The notes under the pieces are model-generated. The model saw only the letters and a program-made list of their open reading frames with translations, had not been told where the DNA came from and ran no database searches. From Lucinisca nassula (taxonomy: Eukaryota; Mollusca; Bivalvia; Lucinida; Lucinidae): DNA of 64,000 nt. The position numbers were made by a program, and so were the translations under genes. The stretch is from the NCBI GenBank assembly GCA_963580285.1, contig OY757023.1:132092027-132156026 (forward strand), given 5' to 3'. Below, one piece after another: positions 32,250 through 62,700 of this stretch; within the stretch, counting starts at the first letter, position 1; each line of letters begins with the position of its first letter.

Positions 32250-32253
32250 AATA
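32250..32253. other. Target-site duplication AATA, left
   Basis: Satellite sequence reads GAATACAATAGCAATG without the insert. Left flank ends AATA at 32250-32253 and the right flank starts AATA at 59730-59733, the largest duplication compatible with symmetric element ends. Confidence 0.8.
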
Positions 32254-32396
32254 AACTCATTGCCAAATAAAAGGCAATTTTGCCATTCGATGGTCTTTTC
32301 AGTCGCTTTTTGGCCATATTTCATGCTAAAAATGCTAGTGTTCGTCAACTGTTAGTGTTCGAAAACATGTAAAAACAGCCTTCGCTACGGACAAAC

Positions 32397-35210
32397 ATCG
32401 GAATATTCCGATGATAATCGGAATATTCCGATGATATATTTTGAAAATTGAAGCAGGATAAAGAAAAAAACAAGAATAAATGTCACTTTTAATGATACAA
32501 AAAGACAGCAATACATATCAACCAAATATTCTCTTTCGGAATATTCCGATGATGTGACATCAAATCTTTCCTCATCGGAATGTTCCGATATCAGGTCTTG
32601 ACTCTGATCAGAACTAATTATGACTGTGAAATGACTTTTTCAGAGTCATGATCTGGTATCGGAACATTTCGATCCTCATCGGAATGTTCCGATATCAGGT
32701 CTTGACTCTGATCAGAACTAACTATGACTGAAATGATTTTTGCAGAGTCAAGATCTGTTATCAGAACATTCCGATGATGTAGGCAGCAAACATTTCATCA
32801 TCGGAATGTTCCGATACAAGGTCTAGCTCAACTCTGATCAGAACCAACTCTGACTGTGACATAACTATTGCAGTCAAGATCTTTCGGAATATTCCGATGA
32901 TGTGATACAAATCGGAATGTTCCGATATCAGGTCTTGACTCTGATCAGAACTAACTGACTGTGAAATGACTTTTGCAGAGTCAAGATCTGGTATCGGAAC
33001 ATTCCGATGAGGAAGTAGCAAATCTTTCAAAATCGGAATATTCCGATACAGGATCTTGAATCTGGTCAAAACTAACAATGATTGTAAAATACCTTTAGCA
33101 GAGTCAAGATCTAGTATCGGAACATTCCGATGATGTAGCAGCAAACCTTTCATCATCGGAATGTTCCGATACCAGATTTGGCATCTGCTAGAACTAACAC
33201 TTATTAAAATAACTTTTGCAGAATCAAGATCTGGTATCGGAACATTCCGATGATCTAAGCAGCAAACATTTCATCATTAGAAAGTTCAGATACCAGATCT
33301 TGAATCTGATCAGAACTAATGCGGATTTTAAAATACCTTTTGCAGAGGCAAGATTGGTATCGGAACATTCCGATGAGGTAGCAGCAAATCTTTCAACATC
33401 AGAATGTTCCGATACAGGATCTTGAATCTGGTCAGAACTAACAATGAATGTAAAATACCTTTAGCAGAGTCAAGATCTAGTATCAGAACATTCCGATGAT
33501 GTAGCAGCAAACCTTTCATTGTCGGAATGTTCCGATACCAGATTGAACTAACACTTTATAAAATAACATTTGCAGAGTCAAGATCTGGTATCGGAACAAT
33601 CCGATGATCTAAGCAGCAAACATTTCATCATAGGAAAGTTCAGATACCAGATCTTGAATCTGATCAGAACTAATGCTGATTTTAAAATACCTTTTGCAGA
33701 GGCAAGATTGGTATCCGAACATTCCGATGAGGTAGCAGCAAAGCTTTCAACATCGGAACGTTCCGATACAGGATCCTGAATCTGGTCAGAACTAACAATG
33801 ATTGTAAAATACCTTTAGCAGAGTCAAGATCTAGTATCGTAACATTCCGATGATGTAGCAGCAAACCTTTCATCATCGGAATGTTCCGATACCAGATTGA
33901 ACTAACACTGTTTATAAAATAACATTTGCAGAGTCAAGATCTGGTGTCGGAACATTCCGATGATCTAAGCAGCAAACATTTCATCACTGGAATGTTCAGA
34001 TACCAGATCTTGAATTTGATCAGAATCCACTGACTGTACAATAACTTGTTCAGAGTCAAGATCTTGTATCGGAACATTCCGATGATGTAGACAGCAAGTT
34101 GATCAGAACTAACACTGATTGTAAAATAACTTTTGCAGAGTCAAGATCTGGTATCGGAACATTCCGATGATGTAGGCAGCTAACTTTTCATCATCGGAAT
34201 GTTCCGATACCGGATCTGGAATCGGATCAGAACTAATACTTATTGTAAAATAACTTTTGCAGAGTCATGAAATGGTATTGGAACATTCCTATGATGTACA
34301 TGTAGGGGGCAAACCTTTCATCATCGGAATGTTCCGATACCAGATCTTGCATCTGATTAGAACTTACAATGATTGTTAAATAACTTTTGCTGAGTCAAGA
34401 TCTGGTATAGGAACATTCCGATGATCTAGGCAGCAAACCTTTCATCATCAGAATGTTCCAATACCAGATCTTGAATTTGATCAGAATCCACTGATTTTAC
34501 AATAACTTGTTCAGAGTCAAGATCTCGGATCGGAACCTTCCGATGATGTAGACAGCAGGTTGATCAGAACTAACACTGATTGTAAAATACCTTTTGCAGA
34601 GGCAAGATCTGGTATGGAAACAACTGATGTAGACAGCAAATTGATCAGAACTAACACTGATTGTAAAATAACTTTTGAAGAGTCAAGATCTAGTATCTGA
34701 ACATTCCAATGATGTAGGAAGCAAACCTCTCATCATCGGAAGTTCCGATACCAAATCTTGCAGCTGACAGAAAACGTTTGCAAACGGTTTCAGAACTTTG
34801 GGGTTGAGACACACTGATGAAGATTAAATATCAGAAAAGGCCTCTGTGTCACTAAATTTGGTATAGTTATGCATTATTTGCATAGTCAAGAAATGGTATC
34901 AGAACATTCCGATGATGTAGGCAGCAAACCTTTCATCATAGGAATCTTCCGATACTAGATCTTGAATTTGATCAGAACCCATAGATTGTACAATAACTTT
35001 TGCAGAGACAGGATCTGGTATCAGAACATTCTGATGATGTAGGCGGCAAACCTTTCATCATCAGAATGTTCTGATACCAGATCTTAAATGCGATCAGAAA
35101 ACTGATTGTAAGATAACTTTTTCAGAGTCAATATCTGGTATCAGAACACGCCAATGATGTAGCCAGCAAACCTTTCATCATCGAAATGTTCCGATACCAC
35201 ATCTTGCATC
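32397..35210. repeat. Stem-loop array, left arm
   Basis: About 23 imperfect units of roughly 120 bp. Each has a hairpin whose arms contain TCGGAACATTCCGATGATG and its complement around a loop such as TAGCAGCAAACCTTT, followed by a second inverted pair AGATCTTGACTCTG and CAGAGTCAAGATCT around an AT-rich loop (TGTAAAATAACTTTTG). Thus the whole array is alternating hairpins. Outermost sites are perfect: CATCGGAATATTCCGATG at 32397-32414. Units decay towards the inside (34600-35200). Confidence 0.9.
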
Positions 35211-35218
35211 TCTGATAA

Positions 35219-35305
35219 GACTTTCGGTTGAGTCTTTAAAGCCGAGGTCCCGTCTCCGTATCCTTAGCTGTTGGTGGGATGTAAAACTCAAACACTCACT
35301 CACTC
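35219..35305 (+). mobile_element. SINE-2 tail in left arm
   Basis: AGACTTTCGG, GAGTCTTTAAAGCCGAGG, TTAGCTGTTGGTGGGA and a CACTCACTCACTC end: the 3' half of the tRNA-derived SINE seen whole at 42267-42428. The head is missing. Mirrored at 55945-56034, so it was already present before the arms became mirror copies, or was copied by arm homogenisation. Confidence 0.8.
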
Positions 35306-35507
35306 AGAACTCTTGATATTAAAATATTTTTTGCAGGGTTAAGATCAAATCTGACTTGGTGACCTAGCTTTTGATCTGATATGACCCATATTCAAACTTG
35401 ATCACAGTATGATCAAGTCAAAATATTCTGGTAAAGTGTCATGGAGATTGAGGTAAATATGTTGCCTATACAGCCGGAGTGGACAAGGTTACAATGAAAT
35501 TAAAACC

Positions 35508-35860
35508 TAGTGACCTGACTTTTGATCTTAGGGAAACCATATTCCAATGCGATCGAGATACCTTTATTTCACAACCATTCTGGTATAGTTTCATGACAAC
35601 TAAAGCAAAACTATGCCCTGTAGAGGGTGAAACGGGTTTCAAAATAGTTTGACCTGTGAGTAATCTCCCTGCTTGCATAAAAGCATATGGCTGTGAGAAG
35701 TTTACTCAAGGAACATTTCTATAAAAAAATTGTCAAAGTATTTCCAATGACTTGGCAGTAAATGCAATTTTCCCCCATTGTAAGTTGTGGGAACTCTTAG
35801 TTGCCATAGCAACCAAACTAATGAGCCAAATTTCATAAAAACATAAACACATTTCTATTA
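35508..35860 (+). repeat. Dispersed repeat, copy 1 (direct repeat with 38333-38690)
   Basis: Starts TAGTGACCTGACTTTTGATC and runs through CATTCTGGTATAGTTTCATG, CCTGTAGAGGGTGAAA and CAACCAAACTAATGAGCCAAA. A second copy in the same orientation lies at 38333-38690 and a related one at 41640-41995. It is also present inverted in the right arm at 55400-55755. Confidence 0.75.
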
Positions 35861-36298
35861 AAGTTTTGTCAAAATGTCTGCAAAAGCTTGGCAGTTAATG
35901 CCATTTTTCGATTTACCTCACTGAGGCAATTTTAATAAGTATCCACAATGCCAGTAACGAATCATGAAGAATAGAACATTTTTATCACTACTCTAATGGA
36001 AACCATGTAATTTTGTTCCAGTCAGGTTTAGATGTCAATATAAGCAATTAAACTAAATAAATATATAAATAAATGGTGAATAGGTGTCAGCAACAGCAGC
36101 ACTAATTTAAGATCACAAGCTGTCTTGTACTGGCATGTCACTGTTGAGTTGTGCTCTACCGCTGTTCATCTCTCTCCGTCTCTGACTACCCTTCATCTTA
36201 GGTTGTAATACACGTCACTGGGCTGATTGGCCACCCCATTACAACAGTCAGTTTTGGACTGTGGCTACTTAATGGCATTTCCTCTGTATTAATAGCTC

Positions 36299-36628
36299 TC
36301 ATCTGGCACCTGTACTATACTGATGACTGTTGACCCAAAGCAGGAAAGGTTGCAATGTGTGCAGGCTGTTTAATTCAACTGTATGTCTCTGTCCAAATGA
36401 AAGACAAGTTTTCCTTTGATGGTTTGATGTGACACAGTTCGAATAGATACATTTATTATTCGTCATTACCTCCTCCCTCATGCGTCGACAAAAATGCATA
36501 TGAGTGAATGACATTGTATTCATAACTGTTAATTTCCACCCTCCAATTCCAGTGGGATAACAGGGAAGCTTGTCCTGAAGATCATAACACACCCACACTG
36601 TACCAAGAGACCCCTTTAATAACTGCAT
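36299..36628 (-). other. 109-codon open frame in left arm, unknown
   Basis: Open frame beginning MQLLKGSLGTVWV and ending HQYSTGAR. The mirror frame at 54623-54952 differs at two residues (FTHMHFCRR versus FSHMHFCRH). I do not recognise the protein; no zinc-finger, DDE or nuclease signature is visible. Because whole arms are near identical, its preservation does not show selection. A neighbouring 68-codon frame lies at 36740-36946, also mirrored. Most likely non-coding. Confidence 0.2.
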
Positions 36629-36879
36629 ATAATTATATTCCTCTTGCAGTCATGATTTTGGAATCGGCCATCAGATTTGAACAGAGTACATGCACACGTG
36701 TACAGGATGTGATACAAATCTGAAAAAGAACAAGAAATATTAAATAACAGGATGTGTTTGTGAAACACTGATGCCCCCGGACAGCATGTTAAATATGAAA
36801 GCAGTATCACTAAGCAATTGAAAGGTATGGCCAATGTTCATCTTAAACAAGAGATGTCGCATGACAGCATAGCTCGTCT

Positions 36880-38297
36880 GTTTCAGGCCTTCAAGATATA
36901 AGGTAAAACTATATATATGGAACATTGAAATATAGATCACACTCACCTACATATATTTTGAGGTCAATCATCAGGTCACATGGAACATATATTCCAGATA
37001 TTACATTTCAGAATCAAATTGTGTCTGAATTATAAGGCTAATCATTGAACCATGAAAATAGGTCACACTGACCTAGATATATTTCTATGTCAATCATCTG
37101 GTCACATGAAATTAAATATCTAGATATGAAGGTTCTACATCCAATAGTATTCAAGATATAAGTCAAAGTCACTGAACCATGTAAGATAGGTCAAACTGAC
37201 CTAGATATATTTTGAGGTCAATCATCTGGTTGCATTGATGTAATAGCCTAGGTATAACATTTCGTTATCAAAATATTATTCAAGACAATTGGCAAAATCA
37301 CTGAACCATGAAATATAGGTCACAATGACCTAGATATATTTTGAGGTCAATCAGCAGGTCACATGGAACTAATAATCAAAGTATGATATTTCTTTATCAA
37401 ATAGTATTCAAGATAATCTAGGCAAAATCAGTGAACCATGAGATATAGGTCACACTGACCTAGATATTTCCGCCCCCGCCCATAGGGGCTTGAAGAAATA
37501 TATGGGCTGCATGATACTTCCACGCAGAGCTGAATCCGGCCTGCACACTAATACTGGTAAACCGCTTAGAGGATCTAAGCCTGTCCAGGAACCACGGTGC
37601 GAGGCGGACCATCCATGCTAATAAACCCTATTGGTTTCATTGGGCGACAGGGCTTGAGATGAAATTTCATCTCAATGTCGGGTAAAAGTCCCACAAAATT
37701 GGAAGCAATGTCTCCAAAATGACCTTTACAGTGTTGACGGGGACGTTAAACCTCAAATCAAACAAACAAACAAACACTGACCTAGATATATTTGGTGGTC
37801 AATTATCAGGTCACATGGAACTAATAATCGAGGCATGACCTTTCTCCTTTGAATAGTATTCAAGATAATAGGCAAAGTCACAGAACCATGAAATATAGGT
37901 CACAGTGACCTAGATATATTTTGAGGTCAATCTTGTGGGGTCTCGAGGCACTAATATCAAAGGTATGACATTTTTCCAACAAATAGTCTTCAAGATATAA
38001 GGCAAAACCTCTGAACCATGAAATATAGGTCACAGTGACCTAGATATATTTGGAGTCCAATCATGGGGTCACATGGTACTAATATCATAGGTATGACATT
38101 TCTCCAACAAATAGTCTTCAAGATATAGGGCAAAATCACTCGACCATGAAATATATGTCACAGTGACCTAGATATATTTTGAGGTCAATTGTGGGGTCAC
38201 ATGGTACTAATATTTCAGGTTTGACATTTCTCCAACATATAGTCTTCAAGATATAAGGCAATATCACTGGACCGTGAAATGTAGGTCACCATGACCT
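36880..38297. repeat. ~125-bp tandem repeat, left arm
   Basis: About nine degenerate units with AGGTCACAGTGACCTAGATAT, then TTTTGAGGTCAAT, GGTCACATGG, TATGACATTTCTCC, AGTATTCAAGATA and AATCACTGAACCATGAAAT. The word GGTCACAGTGACC is itself a palindrome and resembles paired nuclear-receptor half sites (AGGTCA), an inference only. Interrupted by a SINE-1 at 37468-37773. Confidence 0.85.
37468..37773 (+). mobile_element. SINE-1, full length, 16-bp target duplication
   Basis: 306 bp from CCGCCCCCGCCCATAGGGG region to a (CAAA)n tail. Flanked by ACACTGACCTAGATAT at 37452-37467 and 37774-37789. The host sequence is the arm's tandem repeat; the mirror position in the right arm lacks the SINE. Target duplication and simple tail show retroposition. 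Confidence 0.9.
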
Positions 38298-38332
38298 TCA
38301 CCCTTTTACACTTGAACCAATGTCACAGTGCC

Positions 38333-38690
38333 ACCTAGTGACCTGACTTTTGATCTGAGGGAACCCATACTCCAATGTGATCGAGATACCTTTATTTTAC
38401 AACCATTCTGGTATAGTTTCATGACAACTAAAGCAAAACTATGCCCTGTAGAGGGTGAAAAGGTTTAAAAATAGTTTGACCTGTCAGCAAACCCCCTGTT
38501 GGCATAAAAGCATAGGGCTGTGAGAAGTTTACTCAAGGAACATTTCTATAAAAAACAAATTGTCAAAGTACTTCCAATGACTTGGCAGCAAATGCAATTT
38601 CCCCCAATTATAAGTTGTGGGAACTCTTAAGTTGCCATAGCAACCAAACTAATGAGCCAAATTCCATAAAAAGCATAAACTTTCAAGCCC
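38333..38690 (+). repeat. Dispersed repeat, copy 2
   Basis: About 90 percent similar to 35508-35860 by eye, in the same orientation. It continues into CATAAACTTTCAAGCC, GGATGCTACAGAT and GGCAACTGCCTATCC, also seen at 41390-41470 and 41835-41960. Confidence 0.75.
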
Positions 38691-38965
38691 CAAGCCAAAG
38701 GATGCTACAGATGAAATTTGGGCCCAATCTGCTCTGTGGCTTCGGTGGAGATGTTAAATATGTTGGCGCCAGAGGACTTAGGGCAACTGCCTATCCTTTT
38801 TAAAGCTTGCTATATGGTAAGCTTAAAACACAAAACCTAATGAGGCAAATAAGGTGAATATTTTCATAAGAGTCTCAGCCTCAGAGCACATGGTTTCTGA
38901 GGAGATAATTTTTTGAGTATTTTTTTCTATTGTTTTGCACTTTGGTTTCCATGGCAACCAATAAA
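38691..38965 (+). repeat. Host repeat interrupted by the core-repeat element, 5' side
   Basis: GGTGAATATTTTC, TCTCAGCCTCAGAGCA, TTTCTGAGGAGAT and TTCCATGGCAACCAATA are repeated uninterrupted at 41535-41635, which therefore shows the empty-site form of this sequence. Confidence 0.7.
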
Positions 38966-41337
38966 AACAAGAGGGCCCAGAGGGCCCTGAATCACTCACC
39001 TGAAAATTAGTGTCCCCAGTACATTCTAGGCCCAAGGGCTATAATTTGAACAAACTTGGTAATGGTTCACTAGATGAAGCATCATACCAAATATCAAAGA
39101 CCTGGGCCTTCTGGTTTCAGACAAGAAGATTTTTAAAGGTTTTCCCTATATAAGCCTATGAAAAACCAAAAGGTCCCCGGGTAGGGGCATTTTTGGCCAC
39201 AGGGCTATAATTTGATCAATCTAGATGAAGCTTCACATCAAATACCAAAGATCTGGGCCTTGTGGATTCAGAGAAGTAGAGTTTTGCAAGATTTTCCATG
39301 TATAAGCCTATGTAAAACCAAAGGCCCCAGGGGTGGGGGCATTTTTGGCCCCAGGGCTATAATTTGAACAATCTTGGTAGAGGTCCGTTAAGTTGAAACT
39401 TCATATCAAATAGCATAGAGCAGGGCCTTGTGGTATCAGAAGAAGAATTTTAAATATTTTCCCGAATTAAGCCTATGAAGAACCAAAGGGTCCCCGGGTG
39501 GGGGCATTTTTGTTCCTAGGGCTATAATTTGAACAATCTTGATAGAAGTCCAATAGATGAAGCTTCACACCAAATATCTAAGACCTTGGCCTTGCAGTTT
39601 CTGAGAAGAAGGTTTTTTTTTAAGATTTTCCCTAAGTAAAACAAAAGGCCCCCGGGCGGGGGCATTTTTGGCCCCCGGGCTATAATTTAAGCAATCTTGG
39701 TAGCGGTCCATTAGATTAAGCTTCACACCAAATATCAATGACCTGGGCCTTTTGGTTTCAGAGAAGAAAGTTTTAAAGATTTCCCCTATATAAGCTTAGG
39801 TAAAACCAAAGGCCCCCGTGGCGGGGGCATTTTTGGCCCCAAGGCTTTAATTTGAACAATCTTAGTAGAGGTCCACCAGGTTAAGCTTCACACAAAATAT
39901 TAAAGACCTGGGATTGTGGTTTCAGGGAAGAAGATTTTTTAATGATTTTCCCTATATAAGCCTATGTAGAATCACAGGCTCCCGGGGCGGGGGCTTTTTG
40001 GCCCCCAGGGCTACAATTTGAACAATCTTGGTAGAGGTCCACTAGATGAAGCTTCACACCAAATATCAAAGATCTGGGCCTTGCGGTTTCAGGGAAGAAG
40101 ATTTTTAAAGATTTTCCCTAATTAAGCCTATGAAAAACCAAAGGGTCCTGGGGTGGGGGCATTTTTGGTCCTAGGGCTATAATTTGAACAATCTTGATAG
40201 AGGAACACTTTATAGATGAAGCTTCACACCAAATATCTAAGACCTTGGCCTTGCAGTTTCAGAGAAGAAGATTTTTTAATGATTTTCCCTATATAAGCCT
40301 ATGTAAAACCATAGGCCCCCGGGGCGGGGGCATTTTGGCCCCCAGGGCTATAATTTGAACAATCTTAGTAGAGGTCCACCAGGTAAAGCTTCAGACCAAA
40401 TATTAATGTCCTGGGCCTTGTGGTTTCAGAGAAGATTTTTTAATGATTTTCCCTATATAAGCCTTTATAAAACCAAAGGCCCCCGGGGTGGGGGCATTTT
40501 GGCCCCCAGGCCTATAATTTGAACAATCTTGGTAAAGGTCCACTAGATGAAGCTTCACACCAAATATCAAAGACCTGGGCCTTGCAGTTTTAGAGAAGAA
40601 GATTTTTAAAGATTTTCCCTGTATAAGCCTATGTAAAACCAAAGGCCCCCGGGGCGGGGGCATTTTTGGCCCCAGGGCTATAATTTGAACAATCTTAGTA
40701 TAGGTCCACCAGGTAAAGCTTCACACCAAATATTAAAGACTTGGGCCTTGTGGTTTCGGAGTAGAGGATTTTTTTTAATGATTTTCCCTATATAAGCCTA
40801 TGTAAAACCAAAGGCCCCCGGGGCAGGGGTATTTTGGCCCCCAGGGCTATAATTTTAACAATCTTGGTAGAGGTCCACTAGATAAAGCTTCACACCAAGT
40901 ATCAGAGAAGAAGATTTTTTAATGATTTTCGCTATATAAGCCTATGTAAAACCAAAGGCTCCCGGGGCGGGGGCATTTTGGCCCCCCAGGGCTATAATTT
41001 GAACAATCTTGGTAGAGATCCACTAGATGAAGCTTTATACCAAATATCGAAGACCTGGGCCTTGCGGTTTCAGAGAAGAAGATTTTTAAAGTTTTCGGTT
41101 AAAAAATCTATTTTTAGCTCCTGTGACCTAGATGTGCAACAGACCGAAACCATTTGAACAACTTTGAAAGGGGACCACCTAAGGATCATTCCTGTGAAGT
41201 TTGGTCAATATCCGATCAGTGGTTAAGGAGGAGATGTCATTTGAAGAAAAAGTTTACGAACACATGCACGCACGCAATGACGACGGACGAAAAGTGATCA
41301 CAAAAGCTCACCTTGTCACTACGTGACAGGTGAGCTA
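38966..41337 (+). mobile_element. 2.37-kb element with ~13 core tandem repeats and terminal hairpins
   Basis: Starts ACAAGAGGGCCCAGAGGGCC, in which AGGGCCC-AGA-GGGCCCT forms a hairpin, followed by ATCACTCACCTG. The body is about 13 units of roughly 165 bp, each with GGGGGCATTTTTGGCCCC, AGGGCTATAATTTGAACAAT, TAGAGGTCCACTAG, AAGCTTCACACCAAATAT, GACCTGGGCCTTG and TTCCCTATATAAGCCTATG. A unique 3' segment follows (41100-41337) with ACGACGGACGAAAAGTG and a terminal hairpin ending GTGAGCTAAT. Short ends plus internal tandem core recall non-autonomous Helitron/Helentron-type elements of bivalves (the pearl/CvA kind); that class is an inference. Minus-strand frames inside are repeat artefacts. Confidence 0.75.
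41306..41335 (+). repeat. 3'-terminal hairpin of the core-repeat element
   Basis: GCTCACCTtGTCAC pairs with GTGACAGGTGAGC around TAC; one bulged T. Followed by TAATA. Position at the very 3' end fits a Helitron-like terminator, though the CTRR end is not obvious. Confidence 0.7.
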
Positions 41338-42000
41338 ATAAGCAGTAGGCCTAAAATCATATGGAAGATAGAAGACTGCTGAAGGAACATTTCTATTGGG
41401 GCCAAGTGGCTTCAGAGATGTCATTTGAAAGTGTTGACGCCAGACGACGACGGACAACTGCCTATCCTATAAGCTCCCCTGGAGCCTTCCGCTCTGGTGA
41501 GCTAAAAAAAAAAAAAACCTGTAAAGGCAAATATGGTGAATATCTCCACAAACTCTCAGCCTAATAGAGCATTCAGTTTCTGAGGAGATGATTTTTTAAG
41601 TATTTTTTTTTCTATTTTGGTTTCCATGGCAACCAATAGAAATGAGCAGTAGGCCTAAAATCATATGGCAGATAGTAGATTGCCTAAGGAACATTTCTAT
41701 GAAAGTTTTGTCAAAACATCTGCAATGACTTGGCAGAAAAATGCTATTTTTCAATTTTCCCCATTACAAGTCTATGGAAACTCTAAGTAGCCATAGCAAC
41801 CAAACTAATGAGCCGATTTTCATAAAAAACACAAACTTTCAATCCCCTAGCCCAAGGATGCTACAGATAAAATTTGGGTCCAATCGGCCTAGTGGCTTCA
41901 GAGGAGATGTCGTTTGAAAGTGTCAACGACGCAGACGACGACGGACAATGTCCATACTATAAGCTCCCCCGGAGCCTTCGGCTCTGGTGAGCTAACAAGT
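41338..42000 (+). repeat. Two copies of a dispersed repeat ending in a hairpin and GTGAGCTAA
   Basis: AGCAGTAGGCCTAAAATCAT begins both segments (41340 and 41645). They end at 41465-41502 and 41960-41995 with AGCTCCCCTGGAGCC / AGCTCCCCCGGAGCC, a short loop and GGCTCTGGTGAGCTAA: an imperfect hairpin of about 14 bp. The second copy includes the 35508-type sequence (CAACCAAACTAATGAGCC). Confidence 0.7.
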
Positions 42001-42254
42001 AATCAACAAACTTTCAAGTCCACTGTTTAGCTTTGCATAAACAAATGTCTTGATGTTAAGAGTCTCTCTTCCAAGATTATGTATCCATTTTTCACATAAC
42101 TCTCTATTTTTCTTAGGTCAGGGATAGCAACACAGCTTATTCACAGTGCAGTATTTGGCCTTACAAGAATTTTTATTACAGTTCACTTTCACCTAAAGTT
42201 AAAATCCCAAAAATTGTTAGCTGTCAGTACATGAACTGTACAGTTTCCATGAGG
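42001..42254. other. No recognised content
   Basis: AT-rich; a short Cys-rich stretch is readable on the minus strand near 42120-42190 but without start, length or a known motif. Confidence 0.3.
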
Positions 42255-42266
42255 TCACTGCAGGAG

Positions 42267-42428
42267 ATAGAAGCCTCCGTGGTGTAGTGGTTACGCTACT
42301 CGCCTTGAAAACCAGGGATCGCAGGATCGATCCCGGGCTTCTCCAGACTTTCGGACGAGTCTTTAAACCGAGGTCCCATCTCTGTTTGACCTTAGCTGTT
42401 GGTGGGACGTAAAACTCAAAACACTCAC
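42267..42428 (+). mobile_element. SINE-2 (tRNA-derived), complete, 12-bp target duplication
   Basis: tRNA-like head AGCCTCCG with box A TGGTGTAGTGG at 42280-42290 and box B GGATCGATCCC at 42324-42334, then the body GACTTTCGGACGAGTC, TTTAAACCGAGG, TTAGCTGTTGGTGGGACG and a tail AAAACACTCACTCAC. Flanked by TCACTGCAGGAG at 42255-42266 and 42429-42440. Pol III transcription from the internal boxes and reverse transcription by a partner LINE are known for this class. Confidence 0.9.
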
Positions 42429-42440
42429 TCACTGCAGGAG

Positions 42441-42654
42441 TTATAATCTGTAAAAATGTTTGGCACCCTATAAACAACTTTGATGAGCCATTACAGTTAA
42501 TTAGAGAAACAGTTTAGGAGAAGAATACGATTTTATCATTCCTCAATGGTGTTATTGTAAAATTGATCCGAGAAAAAAAAAAGGTGGTCATGCACTTTAA
42601 AACCGGGAATTTCAGAGTTAAACGAAACAGTTTAAATCACAGTCTGACCACCCC
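42441..42654. other. No recognised content
   Basis: No motif or frame identified; includes AGAAAAAAAAAAGG at 42571-42584. Confidence 0.3.
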
Positions 42655-43040
42655 TGGCCATCGGGGCTTGAAGAAATAGATTGGGCATGATGCTTCCATG
42701 CAGAACTGAAACTGACGACAGATGAGTACTGGTAAACCGCTTAGAAGGATTAAGCCTGCCTAGGCAATGCGCTGGAAGTCAGATCGCCTATTGCATATAA
42801 GCCTTTTGATTTTATTGGGCAGCAGGGCTTGAGAAGTTGAGATGTCATTTCATAGGCAAAGCGGTTGGAGTCAGATCGCCCATTGCATAAGTAAGCCTTT
42901 TGATTTCATTAGGCAGCAGGGCATGAGATGTCATCTCATCTCAATGTCAGGTAAAAGTCCCACAAAATTGGAAGCAACTTCTCTAAAATGACCTAAATAG
43001 TGTTGACGGGAACATTAAACCTCAGTTCAAACGAATAAAA
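42655..43040 (+). mobile_element. SINE-1 copy with ~90-bp internal duplication
   Basis: CATCGGGGCTTGAAGAAATA, GATGCTTCCATGC, GGTAAACCGCTTAG, then the block GTCAGATCGCC to GGCAGCAGGGC appears twice (42778-42842 and 42860-42922), then GACGGGAACATTAAACCTC. Approximate flanking similarity AATCACAGTC and AATCACAATC may be a decayed target duplication. Confidence 0.7.
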
Positions 43041-43112
43041 TCACAATCCAAGACTATTTCTTTGACATACATGTACAATCAGAAACTATCGACCAGTACT
43101 CTCTGTGCTTTA

Positions 43113-43990: not shown

Positions 43991-44005
43991 ATTCTGTGGC
44001 GTCTG
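43981..44005. repeat. Perfect 11-bp hairpin
   Basis: CAGACGCCACA, loop TTC, TGTGGCGTCTG. Followed by ATCAAGATCTTCACCATTTGC, which resembles the right side of the hairpin at 50541-50598 and the words at 48510-48530 and 48705-48725. Confidence 0.85.
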
Positions 44006-49330: not shown

Positions 49331-49337
49331 GTCTGCA

Positions 49338-50513: not shown

Positions 50514-50540
50514 AATCCCGGATATGCCTTATCTCTGAAA

Positions 50541-50598: not shown

Positions 50599-50994
50599 TT
50601 TGCCATTCAGATTATGAATTTGTTGCAATAATTTGCATCAAGTAATCTGATTGGTTGATAATCGGTAGTGGGTGTGGCATATATAACTAGAATACTGTCT
50701 ATGGCGTGCCATCGCAAATCCCCACGCTTTCTACAGAGGGGCCAAGTACCGAAAACCGCTCACCCTGGGCCCTAATTTGACTCCATGGTCAAAATATTAC
50801 CTGTATTATATTCTACTAATCATGCCCTTCAATTTCATATGCCACATGACTATGTTCCAAAAAACTTAAATTTTGACCCTTTGACCCCTCTCCCAGGGCC
50901 CCAATCTGACCCCAGGGTCAAAATTTTACTTGTAGTTTATTCTACCCATTATCCCCTTCGCATAGATATGCAACATGACTATGTTCTGAAAACA

Positions 50995-52180: not shown

Positions 52181-52246
52181 AACTAAGTACATGTGCAAAG
52201 TTTGGCATCAAAACCTTCAAAATTGACTTTGTAATTGAATTTTATT

Positions 52247-52716
52247 GATATTTGACCTTTTGACCCCTCCCCAGGGCCCCTGGGGGCGGGGACAAAAAAA
52301 AATGTGCTCTTGCGCAAGCCATTCATGTAAGCAACTCGCATACCAAATTTGGTTAAATTCCAGCTAATGGTTTAGGAGGAGATAGCCGGACAGACAGGCG
52401 GACAGACAGACAGACAGACGGACAGACGGACGGAGGCGATTGCAATATCCCCACTTTTTTTTAAAAACGTGGGGATATTTGACCTTTTGACCCCTCCCCA
52501 GGGCCCCTGGGGGCGGGGACAAAAAAAAATGTGCTCTTGTGCAAGCCATTCATGTAAGCAACTCGCATACCAAATTTGGTTGAATTCCAGCTAATGGTTT
52601 AGGAGGAGATAGCCGGACAGACAGACGGACAGACAGATGGACAGACAGACAGACAGATGGACAGACGGACGGAGGCGATTGCAATATCCCCACTTTTTTT
52701 TAAAAACGTGGGGATA
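52247..52716 (+). repeat. 227/243-bp tandem duplication with (GACA)n and hairpins
   Basis: Copies 52247-52473 and 52474-52716: GATATTTGACCTTTTGACCC, GGGCCCCTGGGGGCGGGG, GGTTTAGGAGGAGATAGCC, (GGACAGAC)n, GGCGATTGCAATATCCCC. Both end in the stem TATCCCCAC...GTGGGGATA (52446-52477, 52685-52716). Confidence 0.85.
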
Positions 52717-52740
52717 AATATTCAGCAGGACAAGGGTTAA

Positions 52741-53279
52741 AGGTGCATTATTGAGCTACCGGGTCTCAATTTTTTTTCTGGTTTTTATCTTCAATGCATA
52801 CTCTTTTGTCATGTGTACACTTTTGGAGCCAAATACAGCTTCAGAAATTTGTGAAAATGGTTGTTTTCATTCGTGTTTACCCTTCGCTCTGAACATGTGT
52901 TCGGAATTTCTGTTCTAAAAATAAATCTGTCACTTTACACATACATGGCGACAGTAGCGTCTCTGAATGTCGTTACTTATGGCATGGTATTCAGCGTCAT
53001 ATTTCTTTCCGATTCAGGCATGGCCTAAGCAAACAAGGCCAAAAATGAACGTCACATGACGTCATATATGGGTATTCTATTTTTGTCACGAACTAAAAAT
53101 AGATCTAACTAGTGTTCGAAACCTAGTTATGGAATCCCTATCAAACTCGTTTGCCTGTCATCATAATTGTTTGCATTTTTGCATAAAATGCATTCATTTG
53201 TATTGTTTTAAAGAAAAATACCGGCTATATGTATTTTATTTTTGGAAGCATTTTTTCCAGATAGCTCAATAATGCACCT
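52741..53279. mobile_element. 539-bp MITE with 18-bp inverted ends and TTAA flanks
   Basis: AGGTGCATTATTGAGCTA at 52741-52758 is the exact inverse of the sequence ending at 53279, and TTAA flanks both ends (52737-52740, 53280-53283). TTAA targeting is known for piggyBac and Kolobok; the terminal AGG does not match the canonical piggyBac ends, so the superfamily is open. No transposase. Confidence 0.75.
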
Positions 53280-53283
53280 TTAA

Positions 53284-53509
53284 GTACCTGGGAGGGTCTT
53301 CTGATGTTCAAAGACAACAGACCCTTGGGTTCATGCCCCGGGGTGGGGCTAGGGGTCAAAATCTAGAACACCTCTGTAGAACCGTGTTAAAGTTTTTTAT
53401 TCTCAACAGACACTCATCACAAAGGATTCATATTTTACAACTTTGATACCCGGGCATGTATTCTGAGATTCCAAGACAACACACCCCTGGGTTCATGCCT
53501 GAGAGGATG
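53284..53509. repeat. Dispersed repeat continuing after the MITE
   Basis: GACCCTTGGGTTCATGCC and ACACCCCTGGGTTCATGCC repeated about 150 bp apart, and the CTCAACAGACACTCATCACA word shared with 50451. No gene. Confidence 0.45.
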
Positions 53510-54622
53510 TTTGACCTCAAAATATATCTAGGTTACTGTGGCATATATTTCGTGGTCCAGTGATTTCGCCTTATATCTTGAAGACTATTTGTTGGAGAAA
53601 TGTCATACCTATGATATTAATTAGTACCATGTGACCCCGTGATTGGACTCCAAATATACATGTATCTAGTCACTCTGACCTATATTTCATGGTTCAGTGG
53701 TTTTGCCTTATATCTTGAAGACTATTTGTTGGAGAAATGTCATATCTTTGATATTAGTGCCTCTTGACCCCATGATTGACCTCAAAATATATCTAGGCCA
53801 CTGTGACCTATATTTCATGGTTCTGTGACTTTGCCTATTATCTTGAATACTATTCAAAGGAGAAAGATCATGCCTGGATTATTAGTTCCATGTGACCCGA
53901 TAATTGACCACCAAATATATCTAAGTCACTGTGACCTATATTTCATGGTTCATTGATTTTGCCTATTATCTTGAATACTTTTTGATGGAGAAATGTCATA
54001 CCTGGAAAATTATTAGTTCAATGTGACCTATGATTGACCTCAAAATATATCTAGGTCAGTGTGACCTATACTTCATGGTTCAGTTTGACTTATATCTTGA
54101 ATACTATTGGATGGAGAAACTTTGTATCTAAATATTTAATTTCATGTGACCAGATGATTGACAGAGAAATATATCTAGGTCAGTGTGACCTATTTTCATG
54201 GTTCAATGATTAGCCTTATAATTCAGACACAATTTGATTCTGAAATGTAATATCTGGAATATATGTTCCATGTGACCTGATGATTGACCTCAAAATATAT
54301 GTAGGTGAGTGTGATCTATATTTCAATGTTCCATATATATAGTTTTACCTTATATCTTGAAGGCGTGAAACAGGCGAGCTATGCTGTCATGCGACATCTC
54401 TTGTTTAAGATGAACATTGGCCATACCTTTCAATTGCTTAGTGATACTGCTTTCATATTTAACATGCTGTCTGGGGGCATCAGTGTTTCACAAACACATC
54501 CTGTTATTTAATATTTCTTGTTCTATTTCAGATTTGTATCACATCCTGTAAACGTGTGCATGTACTCTGTTCAAATCTGATGGCCGATTCCAAAATCATG
54601 ACTGCAAGAGGAATATAATTAT

Positions 54623-54952
54623 ATGCAGTTATTAAAGGGGTCTCTTGGTACAGTGTGGGTGTGTTATGATCTTCAGGACAAGCTTCCCTGTTATCCCACT
54701 GGAATTGGAGGGTGGAAATTAACAGTTATGAATACAATGTCATTCTCTCATATGCATTTTTGTCGACACATGAGGGAGGAGGTAATGACGAATAATAAAT
54801 GTATCTATTCGAACTGTGTCACATCAAACCATCAAAGGAAAACTTGTCTTTCATTTGGACAGAGACATACAGTTGAATTAAACAGCCTGCACACATTGCA
54901 ACCTTTCCTGCTTTGGGTCAACAGTCATCAGTATAGTACAGGTGCCAGATGA
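54623..54952 (+). other. 109-codon open frame in right arm, unknown
   Basis: Mirror of 36628-36299, with a neighbouring mirrored 68-codon frame at 54305-54511. Begins MQLLKGSLGTVWV; two residue differences from the left copy. Not recognised; probably non-coding. Confidence 0.2.
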
Positions 54953-55944
54953 GAGCTATTAATACAGAGGAAATGCCATTAAGTAGCCACAGTCCAAAAC
55001 TGACTGTTGTAATGGGGTGGCCAATCAGCCCAGTGACGTGTATTACAACCTAAGATGAAGGGTAGTCAGAGACAGAGAGAGATGAACAGCGGTAGAGCAC
55101 AACTCAACAGTGACATGCCAGTACAAGACAGCTTGTGATCTTAAATTAGTGCTGCTGTTGCTGACACCTATTCACCATTTATTTATATATTTATTTAGTT
55201 TAATTGCTTATATTGACATCTAAACCTGACTGGAACAAAATTACATGGTTTCCATTAGAGTAGTGATAAAAATGTTCTATTCTTCATGATTCGTTACTGG
55301 CATTGTGGATACTTATTAAAATTGCCTCAGTGAGGTAAATCGAAAAATGGCATTAACTGCCAAGCTTTTGCAGACATTTTGACAAAACTTTAATAGAAAT
55401 GTGTTTATGTTTTTTATGAAATTTGGCTCATTAGTTTGGTTGCTATGGCAACTAAGAGTTCCCACAACTTACAATGGGGGAAAATTGCATTTACTGCCAA
55501 GTCATTGGAAACACTTTGACAATTTTTTTATAGAAATGTTCCTTGAGTAAACTTCTCACAGCCATATGCTTTTATGCAAGCAGGGAGATTACTCACAGGT
55601 CAAACTATTTTGAAACCCGTTTCACCCTCTACAGGGCATAGTTTTGCTTTAGTTGTCATGAAACTATACCAGAATGGTTGTGAAATAAAGGTATCTCGAT
55701 CGCATTGGAATATGGTTTCCCTAAGATCAAAAGTCAGGTCACTAGGTTTAATTTCATTGTAACCTTGTCCACTCCGGCTGTATAGGCAACATATTTACCT
55801 CAATCTCCATGACACTTTACCAGAATATTTTGACTTGATCATACTGTGATCAAGTTTGAATATGGGTCATATCAGATCAAAAGCTAGGTCACCAAGTCAG
55901 ATTTGATCTTAACCCTGCAAAAAATATTTTAATATCAAGAGTTC

Positions 55945-56034
55945 TGAGTGAGTGAGTGTTTGAGTTTTACATCCCACCAACAGCTAAGGATACGGAGACG
56001 GGACCTCGGCTTTAAAGACTCAACCGAAAGTCTT
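55945..56034 (-). mobile_element. SINE-2 tail in right arm
   Basis: Mirror of 35219-35305: GAGTGAGTGAGTG, CCCACCAACAGCTAAGGA, CCTCGGCTTTAAAGACTC, GAAAGTCT. Head missing in both arms, so the truncation predates arm duplication or homogenisation. Confidence 0.8.
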
Positions 56035-56047
56035 ATCAGAGATGCAA

Positions 56048-59000
56048 GATGTGGTATCGGAACATTTCGATGATGAAAGGTTTGCTGGCTACATCATTGG
56101 CGTGTTCTGATACCAGGTATTGACTCTGAAAAAGTTATCTTACAATCAGTTTTCTGATCGCATTTAAGATCTGGTATCAGAACATTCTGATGATGAAAGG
56201 TTTGCCGCCTACATCATCAGAATGTTCTGATACCAGATCCTGTCTCTGCAAAAGTTATTGTACAATCTATGGGTTCTGATCAAATTCAAGATCTAGTATC
56301 GGAAGATTCCTATGATGAAAGGTTTGCTGCCTACATCATCGGAATGTTCTGATACCATTTCTTGACTATGCAAATAATGCATAACTATACCAAATTTAGT
56401 GACACAGAGGCCTTTTCTGATATTTAATCTTCATCAGTGTGTCTCAACCCCAAAGTTCTGAAACCGTTTGCAAACGTTTTCTGTCAGCTGCAAGATTTGG
56501 TATCGGAACTTCCGATGATGAGAGGTTTGCTTCCTACATCATTGGAATGTTCAGATACTAGATCTTGACTCTTCAAAAGTTATTTTACAATCAGTGTTAG
56601 TTCTGATCAATTTGCTGTCTACATCAGTTGTTTCCATACCAGATCTTGCCTCTGCAAAAGGTATTTTACAATCAGTGTTAGTTCTGATCAACCTGCTGTC
56701 TACATCATCGGAAGGTTCCGATCCGAGATCTTGACTCTGAACAAGTTATTGTAAAATCAGTGGATTCTGATCAAATTCAAGATCTGGTATTGGAACATTC
56801 TGATGATGAAAGGTTTGCTGCCAAGATCATCGGAATGTTCCTATACCAGATCTTGACTCAGCAAAAGTTATTTAACAATCATTGTAAGTTCTAATCAGAT
56901 GCAAGATCTGGTATCGGAACATTCCGATGATGAAAGGTTTGCCCCCTACATGTACATCATAGGAATGTTCCAATACCATTTCATGACTCTGCAAAAGTTA
57001 TTTTACAATAAGTATTAGTTCTGATCTGATTCCAGATCCGGTATCGGAACATTCCGATGATGAAAAGTTAGCTGCCTACATCATCGGAATGTTCCGATAC
57101 CAGATCTTGACTCTGCAAAAGTTATTTTACAATCAGTGTTAGTTCTGATCAACTTGCTGTCTACATCATCGGAATGTTCCGATACAAGATCTTGACTCTG
57201 AACAAGTTATTGTACAGTCAGTGGATTCTGATCAAATTCAAGATCTGGTATCTGAACATTCCAATGATGAAATGTTTGCTGCTTAGAACATCGGAATGTT
57301 CCGATACCAGATCTTGACTCTGCAAATGTTATTTTATAAACAGTGTTAGTTCAATCTGGTATCGGAACATTCCGATGATGAAAGGTTTGCTGCTACATCA
57401 TCAGAATGTTCCGATACTAGATCTTGACTCTGCTAAAGGTATTTTACAATCATTGTTAGTTCTGACCAGATTCAGGATCCTGTATCGGAACGTTCCGATG
57501 TTGAAAGCTTTGCTGCTACCTCATCGGAATGTTCGGATACCAATCTTGCCTCTGCAAAAGGTATTTTAAAATCAGCATTAGTTCTGATCAGATTCAAGAT
57601 CTGGTATCTGAACTTTCCTATGATGAAATGTTTGCTGCTTAGATCATCGGATTGTTCCGATACCAGATCTTGACTCTGCAAATGTTATTTTATAAAGTGT
57701 TAGTTCAATCTGGTATCGGAACATTCCGACAATGAAAGGTTTGCTGCTACATCATCGGAATGTTCTGATACTAGATCTTGACTCTGCTAAAGGTATTTTA
57801 CATTCATTGTTAGTTCTGACCAGATTCAAGATCCTGTATCGGAACATTCTGATGTTGAAAGATTTGCTGCTACCTCATCGGAATGTTCCGATACCAATCT
57901 TGCCTCTGCAAAAGGTATTTTGAAATCCGCATTAGTTCTGATCAGATTCAAGATCTGGTATCTGAACTTTCCTATGATGAAATGTTTGCTGCTTAGATCA
58001 TCGGAATGTTCCGATACCAGATCTTGATTCTGCAAAAGTTATTTTAACAAGTGTTAGTTCTAGCAGATGCCAAATCTGGTATCGGAACATTCCGATGATG
58101 AAAGGTTTGCTGCTACATCATCGGAATGTTCCGATACTAGATCTTGACTCTGCTAAAGGTATTTTTTTACTATTTTACAATCATTGTTAGTTTTGACCAG
58201 ATTCAAGATCCTGTATCGGAATATTCCGATGTTGAAAGATTTGCTACTTCCTCATCGGAATGTTCCGATACCAGATCTTGACTCTGCAAAAGTCATTTCA
58301 CAGTCAGTTAGTTCTGATCAGAGTCAAGACCTGATATCGGAACATTCCGATTTGTATCACATCATTGGAATATTCCGAAAGATCTTGACTGCAATAGTTA
58401 TGTCACAGTCAGAGTTGGTTCTGATCAGAGTTAAGCTAGACCTTGTATCGGAACATTCCGATGATGAAAGGTTTGCTGCTACATCATCGGAATGTTCCGA
58501 TACTAGATCTTGACTCTGCTAAAGGTATTTTACAATCATTGTTAGTTCTGACCAGATTCAAGATCCTGTATCGGAACATTCTGATGTTGAAAGATTTGCT
58601 GCTACCTCATCGGAATGTTCCGATACCAATCTTGCCTCTGCAAAAGGTATTTTAAAATCAGCATTAGTTCTGATCAGATTCAAGATCTGGTATCTGAACT
58701 TTCTAATGATGAAATGTTTGCTGCTTAGATCATCGGAATGTTCCGATACCAGATCTTGATTCTGCAAAAGTTATTTTAATAAGTGTTAGTTCTAGCAGAT
58801 GCCAAATCTGGTACCGGAACATTCCGATGATGAAAGGTTTGCTGCTACATCATCGGAATGTTCCGATACTAGATCTTGACTCTGCTAAAGGTATTTTACA
58901 ATCATTGTTAGTTTTGACCAGATTCAAGATCCTGTATCGGAATATTCCGATGTTGAAAGATTTGCTACTTCCTCATCAGAATGTTCCGATACCAGATCTT

Positions 59001-59590
59001 GACTCTGCAAAAGTCATTTCACAGTCAGTTAGTTCTGATCAGAGTCAAGACCTGATATCGGAACATTCCGATTTGTATCACATCATCGGAATATTCCGAA
59101 AGATCTTGACTGCAATAGTTATGTCACAGTCAGAGATGGTTCTGATCAGAGTTAAGCTAGACCTTGTATCGGAACATTCCGATGATGAAATGTTTGCTGC
59201 CTACATCATCGGAATGTTCTGATAACAGATCTTGACTCTGCAAAAATCATTTCAGTCATAGTTAGTTCTGATCAGAGTCAAGACCTGATATCGGAACATT
59301 CCGATGAGGATCGAAATGTTCCGATACCAGATCATGACTCTGAAAAAGTCATTTCACAGTCATAATTAGTTCTGATCAGAGTCAAGACCTGATATCGGAA
59401 CATTCCGATGAGGAAAGATTTGATGTCACATCATCGGAATATTCCGAAAGAGAATATTTGGTTGATATGTATTGCTGTCTTTTTGTATCATTAAAAGTGA
59501 CATTTATTCTTGTTTTTTTCTTTATCCTGCTTCAATTTTCAAAATATATCATCGGAATATTCCGATTATCATCGGAATATTCCGATGTTT
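56048..59590. repeat. Stem-loop array, right arm
   Basis: About 30 units of roughly 120 bp built like the left array; contains at least one segmental duplication (58070-58450 resembles 58800-59170 closely), which explains its extra length. The outermost sites ATCGGAATATTCCGAT at 59550-59585 are perfect palindromes. Confidence 0.9.
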
Positions 59591-59729
59591 GTCCGTAACG
59601 AAGGCTGTTTTTACATGTTTTCGAACACTAACAGTTGACGAACACTAGCATTTTTAGCATGAAATATGGCCAAAAAGCGACTGAAAAGACCATCGAATGG
59701 CAAAATTGCCTTTTATTTGGCAATGAGTT

Positions 59730-62700
59730 AATAGCAATGTTTACACCGTTAGTCTGTCCCAATAAAGTACGCCCTCGGGCCAAATTACAGATCGCTGCGT
59801 ACAATAGAGGCCAAGAAAATTGACTTAGAAATTTTGGTGGGCGGCGTGTTGTGGGTACGAGAATCTCATTTTGGTCACTTTCACGTAGAAGCATGAAAAT
59901 GGTGCCAAAACGTGCCCATGCGTGTCCAACCAACTCATGAATATTGGAAAATTGTTTCTCTCAAATAGTTTTGGAGATATAAGGGTCCAAAGTTAAAGGA
60001 AATTGACCTTTCAAGGGCCATAACTCGAAACTCAATGAAGGAAGACAACTCCCATTTTACCCCATGGCACTTGGGTTAAGGGCGCATCATTTGGCACCAA
60101 TTATAGGCCGATATCATGAAGTCACCTTTGCACCATTTAGGCACTATCATCCTATTGGTGTCCCGCCAAAACTTGAGGCCCTTATAACTCGCTTTTGTGT
60201 ATTGCGATTGAGCTGAAATTTTGCATGCTGCTAGTAGACCTCAGTGCCTAGTGGCTTGCAAAATTTCGTGCCGCTACGAAGCGTATCTTGTGAGTTATAA
60301 GCCTTCAAACTTCGAGGAAATTAAAGTTTGTGCCTATTTTGCGGGAATACGAAATAAGATACAGAGGTGCAGTATGTATCCTTCAACAGGCATTTATGTG
60401 CCCTACCATCGTGCAAAATCCCGGTAACACTGGGGCACGAGAAAGTGCCGAAATAAAGGACTCTTTTTTACATTGAGGGCTATGGGAAAAATGAAGAAAA
60501 CGCCGCTACTCAGCCTAGAGGGCGAATACAATAGCAATGTTTACACCGTTAGTCCGTCCCAATAAAGTACGCCCTCGGGCCAAATTACAGATCGCTGCGT
60601 ACAATAGAGGCCAAGAAAATTGACTTAGAAATTTTGGTGGGCGGCGTGTTGTGGGTACGAGAATCTCATTTTGGTCACTTTCACGTAGAAGCATGAAAAT
60701 GGTGTCAAAACGTGCCCATGCGTGTCCAACCAACTCATGAATATTGGAAAATTGTTTCTCTCAAATAGTTTTGGAGATATAAGGGTCCAAAGTTAAAGGA
60801 AATTGACCTTTCAAGGGCCATAACTCGAAACTCAATGAAGGAAGACAACTCCCATTTTACCCCATGGCACTTGGGTTAAGGGCGCATCATTTGGCACCAA
60901 TTATAGGCCGATATCATGAAGTCACCTTTGCACCATTTAGGCACTATCATCCTATTGGTGTCCCGCCAAAACTTGAGGCCCTTATAACTCGCTTTTGTGT
61001 ATTGCGATTGAGCTGAAATTTTGCATGCTGCTAGTAGACCTCAGTGCCTAGTGGCTTGCAAAATTTCGTGCCGCTACGAAGCGTATCTTGTGAGTTATAA
61101 GCCTTCAAACTTCGAGGAAATTAAAGTTTGTGCCTATTTTGCGGGAATACGAAATAAGATACAGAGGTGCAGTATGTATCCTTCAACAGGCATTTATGTG
61201 CCCTACCATCGTGCAAAATCCCGGTAACACTGGGGCACGAGAAAGTGCCGAAATAAAGGACTCTTTTTTACATTGAGGGCTATGGGAAAAATGAAGAAAA
61301 CGCCGCTACTCAGCCTAGAGGGCGAATACAATAGCAATGTTTACACCGTTAGTCCGTCCCAATAAAGTACGCCCTCGGGCCAAATTACAGATCGCTGCGT
61401 ACAATAGAGGCCAAGAAAATTGACTTAGAAATTTTGGTGGGCGGCGTGTTGTGGGTACGAGAATCTCATTTTGGTCACTTTCACGTAGAAGCATGAAAAT
61501 GGTGCCAAAACGTGCCCATGCGTGTCCAACCAACTCATGAATATTGGAAAATTGTTTCTCTCAAATAGTTTTGGAGATATAAGGGTCCAAAGTTAAAGGA
61601 AATTGACCTTTCAAGGGCCATAACTCGAAACTCAATGAAGGAAGACAACTCCCATTTTACCCCATGGCACTTGGGTTAAGGGCGCATCATTTGGCACCAA
61701 TTATAGGCCGATATCATGAAGTCACCTTTGCACCATTTAGGCACTATCATCCTATTGGTGTCCCGCCAAAACTTGAGGCCCTTATAACTCGCTTTTGTGT
61801 ATTGCGATTGAGCTGAAATTTTGCATGCTGCTAGTAGACCTCAGTGCCTAGTGGCTTGCAAAATTTCGTGCCGCTACGAAGCGTATCTTGTGAGTTATAA
61901 GCCTTCAAACTTCGAGGAAATTAAAGTTTGTGCCTATTTTGCGGGAATACGAAATAAGATACAGAGGTGCAGTATGTATCCTTCAACAGGCATTTATGTG
62001 CCCTACCATCGTGCAAAATCCCGGTAACACTGGGGCACGAGAAAGTGCCGAAATAAAGGACTCTTTTTTACATTGAGGGCTATGGGAAAAATGAAGAAAA
62101 CGCCGCTACTCAGCCTAGAGGGCGAATACAATAGCAATGTTTACACCGTTAGTCCGTCCCAATAAAGTACGCCCTCGGGCCAAATTACAGATCGCTGCGT
62201 ACAATAGAGGCCAAGAAAATTGACTTAGAAATTTTGGTGGGCGGCGTGTTGTGGGTACGAGAATCTCATTTTGGTCACTTTCACGTAGAAGCATGAAAAT
62301 GGTGCCAAAACGTGCCCATGCGTGTCCAACCAACTCATGAATATTGGAAAATTGTTTCTCTCAAATAGTTTTGGAGATATAAGGGTCCAAAGTTAAAGGA
62401 AATTGACCTTTCAAGGGCCATAACTCGAAACTCAATGAAGGAAGACAACTCCCATTTTACCCCATGGCACTTGGGTTAAGGGCGCATCATTTGGCACCAA
62501 TTATAGGCCGATATCATGAAGTCACCTTTGCACCATTTAGGCACTATCATCCTATTGGTGTCCCGCCAAAACTTGAGGCCCTTATAACTCGCTTTTGTGT
62601 ATTGCGATTGAGCTGAAATTTTGCATGCTGCTAGTAGACCTCAGTGCCTAGTGGCTTGCAAAATTTCGTGCCGCTACGAAGCGTATCTTGTGAGTTATAA

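Follow-up and report, generated by a model that had tools for sequence, protein, structure and literature searches.

A probable giant non-autonomous DNA transposon with foldback architecture in a satellite array of the bivalve Lucinisca nassula

The closest described systems are foldback elements and large DNA transposons. Tetris, a foldback element of Drosophila virilis, has arms of up to 1,735 bp and duplications of 8-10 bp (PMC4079207). The arm repeats of Galileo, a Drosophila element of the P superfamily, were shown to hold additional transposase-binding sites (PMC3688188). Sola elements make 4-bp duplications, which are AT-rich in Sola2, and some described elements exceed 15 kb (PMC10741241, PMC3627910). 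The Sola2 duplications follow AWWT (ATAT, AAAT, ATTT) (PMC3627910), reported Sola inverted repeats run from 11 to 1124 bp (PMC10741241, PMC3627910), and Sola is present in bivalves (PMC10294476). Ginger1 and Ginger2 carry TGTNR at the 5' end (PMC2836005). Teratorn combines a piggyBac-like transposase with herpesvirus genes and has long inverted repeats (PMC6431247). According to a review, the efficiency of DNA transposition drops sharply once the cargo exceeds about 6 kb, although constructs of 100-200 kb have been mobilised artificially (PMC6431247).

The window analysed here, a 64,000-nucleotide stretch of contig OY757023.1, holds an element of foldback-like architecture. Its arms of 5-6 kb are mirrored tandem arrays, and multiple copies with target-site duplications exist in the genome. 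Like Tetris, the family has arms made of terminal, tandem-repeat and inner domains, a non-coding middle and no autonomous partner found (PMC4079207). Unlike Tetris, its arms measure 5.2-5.9 kb, its unit 23-27 kb and its duplication 4 bp; in unit size it greatly exceeds the foldback elements compared. Galileo shares the long, internally repetitive inverted ends; it differs in encoding a transposase and in having arms of little over 1 kb (PMC3688188). With Teratorn and other giant transposons the family shares the movement of tens of kilobases as one unit (PMC6431247), whereas no gene of the Teratorn kind was found in the scanned stretches. A giant foldback element of this layout was not found in the excerpts of open-access literature searched. 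The features of the element and its site are:

32254..59729, no strand assigned: whole element, 27,476 bp, delimited from ends, flanks and other copies
32250..32253, no strand assigned: target-site duplication AATA, left copy
59730..59733, no strand assigned: target-site duplication AATA, right copy
8668..32253, plus strand: 800-bp satellite array left of the insert (monomer consensus, self-comparison)
59730..64000, plus strand: 800-bp satellite right of the insert, phase resumed (monomer consensus, self-comparison)
32254..32535, plus strand: left terminal domain, about 280 bp, single copy
32536..35211, plus strand: left array of about 122-bp units with the palindrome TCGGAANNTTCCGA
35212..37467, plus strand: left inner arm, a unique part and then an array of about 128-bp units from 36926
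37774..50500, no strand assigned: core common to other copies, including an array of about 166-bp units at 39022-41095
45397..46467, no strand assigned: 1.07-kb nested insert private to the window copy, bordered by an 8-9-bp repeat and inverted at its ends
53506..56036, minus strand: right inner arm, an array of about 128-bp units (53506-54325) and a unique part
56037..59447, minus strand: right array, mirror image of the left and somewhat longer
59448..59729, minus strand: right terminal domain, inverted copy

The element starts with AACTCATTGCC at 32254 and closes with GGCAATGAGTT at 59729. The span 32250-59733 given in the original prediction is the element plus both AATA copies; the element proper is 32254-59729. 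The same prediction called the ends exact inverted repeats. The outermost 382 bases pair with one mismatch, followed by a 1-bp gap, so near-perfect pairing stands and "exact" is slightly overstated. The AATA duplication and unbroken satellite phase that it described were both borne out. Monomers of 800 bp (29 to the left, 5 to the right, each with 0-1 differences from the consensus) stay in phase across the insert after one AATA is discounted, and in self-comparison the right satellite is 99.8-99.9% identical to the left array. The monomers of the left array are intact empty sites.

The left arm (32254-37467) is 5.2 kb long and the right arm (59729-53789) 5.9 kb. Their best long alignment is 96.8% identical over 4,970 columns, with the arrays of about 122-bp and about 128-bp units in mirror order across the two arms. 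Between them lies a centre of 16.3 kb (37468-53788), in which three stretches look like later inserts. The first, at about 37468-37773, is a dispersed 0.3-kb repeat. The 1.07-kb insert at 45397-46467 has no match in the four copies examined in full (4/4), and these four also lack the stretch at about 50500-53280, entirely or for the most part.

The terminal segment proved to be shared by many copies. In the 2.93-Gb assembly, a 24-bp end occurs 78 times (reversed control, 1). These ends make up 30 adjacent convergent pairs with spacings of 17-92 kb, leaving 18 of the 78 unpaired; the parts of one C7 unit are 1.1 Mb from each other. At least 21 of the 30 pairs enclose a near-full match to the core (40 candidates scored), and a second core probe and an arm probe match further copies (40 candidates scored each). 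A search with the 150-bp end yielded 87 candidates, 40 of which were scored. As expected, the 24-bp end is absent from prokaryote contigs. Ends and core make up a single unit that recurs in tens of copies.

Exact 4-bp duplications flank 25 of the 30 pairs, or 26 if one pair uses its outer end. Among 32 end combinations compared, 26 have an exact 4-bp duplication, never a longer one, and six lack a matching duplication; the 4-bp duplications that the original prediction suggested seeking at other copies do exist. Insertion takes place at a palindromic target rich in A and T (majority letters AC-WWWW-GT) and duplicates 4 bp of it. Of 52 positions adjoining the duplication, 31 carry C or G, compared with 25 among 260 neighbouring positions, the position having been chosen after looking. 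Because other copies carry these duplications with the same core between their ends, we conclude that the whole unit moves. This supports the original prediction of a cleanly inserted foldback-type element, which drew on the inverted ends, the in-phase satellite and the duplicated AATA.

Two copies bear directly on how the family spread. A sister copy at C17:130814302-130840717, 1.3 Mb from the window element, has its own duplication, AAAC, and is identical to the window copy over 2,103 probed bases (probes of 601, 701 and 801). A C22 copy sits at the same satellite base as the window insertion, in the opposite orientation. Two copies in one satellite family, some unpaired ends and the split C7 unit could be attributed to segmental duplication, satellite exchange or assembly joins instead of transposition. 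This reading is scarcely credible and largely refuted: unrelated flanking sequences carry exact 4-bp duplications in 26 of the 32 combinations, which rules out an assembly join or duplication, and satellite exchange is ruled out for the C22 copy, whose core runs opposite to the satellite and whose satellite flanks are only about 95% identical. The family copies with their duplications, the C17 sister and the C22 insertion therefore indicate recent transposition of the whole unit, not an assembly join. The window element very probably represents a recent insertion of a giant DNA transposon that is non-autonomous and built as a foldback.

No mobility gene had been visible in the element, and none emerged. 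The Pfam scan took in six frames of 34900-39101 and 41001-50702 and gave no match above cut-off; two matches fell below it in the window element (Pet100 and UPF0728). Four copies examined in full hold nested retroelements only and no transposase, nor was one found in 5 kb from the centre of a fifth. The core contains a 169-aa open reading frame for which no relative was found; its length was reached in 11 of 200 shuffles, and it is broken in all three copies aligning to it. The length of another 169-aa frame, within the tandem repeats of an arm array, was reached in only 1 of 200. A 30-aa reverse-transcriptase-like fragment (63-67%) occurs in the C12 and C4 copies, in a stretch matching window 49826-50500. 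It is a faint relic that counts against a wholly gene-free reading, but it is not a transposase. No RNA family reached the gathering threshold in 32000-60600.

How the unit is mobilised is a matter of inference, as no transposase was found in the copies examined. A DDE-type transposase supplied in trans would pair both ends, cut the target with a 4-bp stagger and move the unit as a whole, whose length without later inserts is about 23 kb; many copies subsequently grew through nested insertions. By analogy with the Galileo arm repeats, the arm palindromes may be extra transposase-binding sites. Conservation of the palindrome (0.0228 differences per site) does not exceed that of nine control words, which range from 0.018 to 0.038, so such a role gains no support from it.

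As for the source of the enzyme, our best single guess is Sola2, a tentative one to which the AT-rich duplication of 4 bp lends weak support. The family resembles Sola2 in always having a 4-bp duplication, AT-rich by majority. It differs from Sola in that only 7 of 26 duplications fit AWWT and the arms lie beyond the inverted-repeat lengths reported. No Sola transposase was seen in the Pfam-scanned frames (Pfam may hold no Sola model). A Mutator-type foldback element, as proposed for Tetris with its 8-10-bp duplication, does not fit duplications that are 4 bp and never longer in 26 of 26. Ginger1 and Ginger2 were rejected on their TGTNR end, since the element begins AACTC in the copies examined. 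The piggyBac type seen in Teratorn, with its TTAA target duplication, was also rejected (0/26 TTAA).

The native form could instead be a giant gene-bearing transposon, still autonomous at C3:95445623-95498331, at C6:102960012-103025667 or in an unassembled copy, with the window copy a gene-free relative whose centre was replaced. At the C3 and C6 sites the ends are exact and flanked by 4-bp duplications (ATCA and CAAA), and neither core probe nor the arm probe matched these copies among the 40 candidates scored per search, a number that makes these negatives weak. Nested insertions alone can account for lengths of 50 kb, and the four full copies and the fifth centre piece speak against a resident transposase; we consider this origin unlikely. 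The terminal sequence, proposed as a route to an autonomous relative, led to none with either the 24-mer or a 14-mer (90 places, 16 absent from the 24-mer list; reversed control, 5).

Neither search returned a convergent pair closer than 17.0 kb. A further reading is an obligately giant, gene-free transposon that never moves as less than about 20 kb since its palindrome-rich arms of 5-6 kb are required for mobilisation, that gives rise to no short deletion derivatives and whose enzyme lies outside the described superfamilies. If a short derivative had one end that was badly mutated, it would show up as one of the 18 unpaired ends, so derivatives of this kind may exist, and we regard the obligately giant form as rather doubtful. 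The lack of close pairs, together with the giant size and long inverted repeats, might also be what remains of a virus-like element that lost its genes, either one of the Polinton type or a Teratorn-like fusion. Polinton/Maverick elements make a 6-bp duplication and encode their own polymerase, integrase and capsid genes. With 4-bp duplications, none of them TTAA, and no polymerase, integrase or capsid domain in the scanned frames, the Polinton/Maverick assignment was rejected and a viral ancestry of either kind is very improbable.

On the preferred reading of a non-autonomous transposon, the family moved about 23-27 kb without a recognisable gene, recently, repeatedly and with exact ends. Two questions become testable with it: do repetitive arms aid the mobility of very long elements, and how does a giant that lacks genes encounter its enzyme? 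The two arms of one element differ by 0.5% in the window copy, 1.25% in C2 and 1.8-2.0% in C4, C9 and C12; arms compared between elements differ by 1.3-3.2%, and those of C12 and C4 pair crosswise at 1.3-1.5%. Since two elements retained distinct histories in their arms, identity between arms does not make a simple clock, and from these comparisons we claim neither gene conversion nor an age. Near-identical inverted arms at so many sites could seed rearrangements. With later inserts counted, the 30 paired copies add up to about 1.28 Mb.

The insert under study lies at 32254-59729 of the window (C17:132092027-132156026; C numbers denote contigs), and the assembly searched comprises 2.93 Gb in 696 contigs. 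An 800-bp satellite starts at 8668, breaks off after 32253 and is in phase again from 59730, bearing out the original prediction that satellite phase runs unbroken over the insert. The insert is 27,476 bp long, and the predicted AATA duplication is present on both flanks. Its ends had been called exact inverted repeats; the terminal 382 bases are indeed inverted copies, with one mismatch. The arms extend inward to 37467 (left) and 53789 (right). The features of this copy are:

Terminal domain, outermost arm module, 280 bp, inverted between the arms
Array of ~122-bp units, next module inward, 2.7 kb left and 3.4 kb right, mirrored
Unique part, then ~128-bp array, inner arm modules, in mirror order in the opposite arm
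45397-46467, nested insert of 1.07 kb, private to this copy, its inverted ends built from repeats of ~20 bp

The repeats in the inverted ends of the nested insert contain TACCGGAAAGCA. At its borders stands a direct repeat of 8-9 bp, CTAGTGAC(G). A 0.3-kb repeat at 37472-37770, also found all through the other copies, recurs near 6964-7252, 42651, 44383, 46716, 47403 and 48831, in some cases inverted.

The original prediction looked to other copies of the end, with 4-bp duplications, as its check, and both exist. The 24-bp end, with at most 2 mismatches, occurs at 78 places (70 exact), and its reversed control at 1. These ends form 30 adjacent convergent pairs spaced 17.0-92.3 kb (median 41.9 kb), leaving 18 of the 78 unpaired. 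Flanks were compared in 32 end combinations, namely the adjacent pairs, an outer C6 partner and two C7 ends. An exact 4-bp duplication, never longer, flanks 26 of the 32, against a chance expectation of about 0.5-1.3% of cases. Among adjacent pairs the figure is 25 of 30, or 26 if the C6 copy uses its outer end. No matching duplication was seen at C5:4.7M, C4:162.9M, C5:133M, the inner C6 end (which adjoins an assembly gap), the C7 ends or C10:5.78M. On C7, the first core probe matches close to a left end at 829381 and the second close to a right end at 1993943. These two ends are collinear, 1.16 Mb apart and flanked by unlike 4-mers; they represent either a unit that is split or chimeric or an error in scaffolding.

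The base beside the duplication is C (left) or G (right) in 31/52 cases versus 25/260 at neighbouring positions (P about 3e-14, for a position chosen after looking), and on both sides in 10/26. ATAT makes up 6 of the 26 duplications. Because of these neighbours and the duplication sequences, the target is roughly AC-WWWW-GT, a palindrome.

Whether the whole 27.5 kb moves had been left as a question. The entire unit moves, ends together with core. With 40 of its 2,088 candidates scored, the first core probe (window 43000-43600) gave 73 rows and at least 26 near-full matches at 87-100% identity. Adjacent pairs enclose 21 of the 26; another 4 are found at 10-26 kb distance from an unpaired end, and one (C6:10.32M) has no listed end nearby. 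The second core probe (40 of 7,264 scored) and the arm probe (40 of 600) match additional copies, in many of them both arms, among the matches listed. With inserts absent from other copies subtracted, the window unit would measure ~23.3 kb; of the copies that both core probes match, the smallest measures 24.5 kb.

Among the matches listed, the nearest relative is C17:130814302-130840717, in opposite orientation. It is identical across probes of 601, 701 and 801 bases. Its length falls 1.06 kb short of the window copy's, a difference close in size to the private insert, which it presumably lacks. Probe-identical and with its own duplication, AAAC, it indicates recent transposition. Another copy, C22:6158342-6200427, interrupts the 800-bp satellite at the same base and is turned round with respect to its monomers, which are ~95% identical to the window's. 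This insertion is independent and marks a preferred target, a hotspot within the satellite.

The prediction that no mobility gene is visible held in the frames scanned. A six-frame Pfam scan of 34900-39101 and 41001-50702 gave nothing above cut-offs. Core ORF lengths resemble those of shuffled sequence. A search with the longest, 169 aa, gave no relative, and it is disrupted in all 3 copies aligning to it. Substitutions against four fully read copies (C12:100.96M, C2:181.03M, C4:129.15M and C9:1.61M), judged by eye, follow no consistent codon-phase pattern. Nested retroelements account for some long ORFs in these copies: C4 holds a DIRS-like element with a tyrosine recombinase, while C9 and C2 carry LINE reverse transcriptases. 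As protein identity among the latter is at most 61%, these LINEs are separate insertions. In C12, further long ORFs consist of low-complexity repeats. Both C12 and C4 have a reverse-transcriptase-like fragment of 30 aa within the segment corresponding to window 49826-50500.

A transposase supplied in trans would act on the ends. Searched by itself, the 14-bp end gave 90 places. The 16 beyond the 24-mer list make no convergent pair, so this assembly search found no compact autonomous element with the exact end. Of the superfamilies checked, Sola2 fits best on duplication length and AT-richness, but its AWWT pattern matches just 7 of the 26 duplications. Ginger is ruled out by its end sequence and piggyBac by its target. 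The giant copies C3:95.4M and C6:102.96M, with exact ends and duplications, match neither core probe nor the arm probe among the matches listed, and are the likeliest candidate sites for a coding centre. Neither core probe matched the C4:76.3M and C10:5.78M pairs among the matches listed; a central 5-kb piece of the C4:76.3M copy holds diverged arm repeats and no ORF above 114 aa. Arm-array repeats there (L058:2257-3061, a piece from the middle of this 17-kb copy at C4:76.32M) are 74-81% identical to the window's, perhaps an older subfamily.

The window copy's two outer arms contain 23 and 30 instances of the palindrome TCGGAANNTTCCGA, and eight more arms hold 20-35 apiece; it is absent from the inner arms, core and satellite counted in the window. 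For Galileo, PMC3688188 reports arm repeats shown to serve as accessory binding sites. By analogy, the palindromes here could do the same; their conservation is not better than that of control words. Scaled up, the layout matches that of foldback elements such as Tetris (PMC4079207): the arms are ~3x longer, the unit measures 23-27 kb and the duplication has 4 bp rather than 8-10 bp. The repeats are molluscan in appearance.

Two sequence pieces from the C9 and C2 copies (L048:6702-8360 and L039:6642-8042) hold differing LINE reverse transcriptases, 51% identical in protein, that adjoin the same position of the 0.3-kb repeat, and this may reflect a LINE with a preferred target. Outside the element, a 289-aa open frame on the minus strand at window 50-919 may encode part of a reverse transcriptase.
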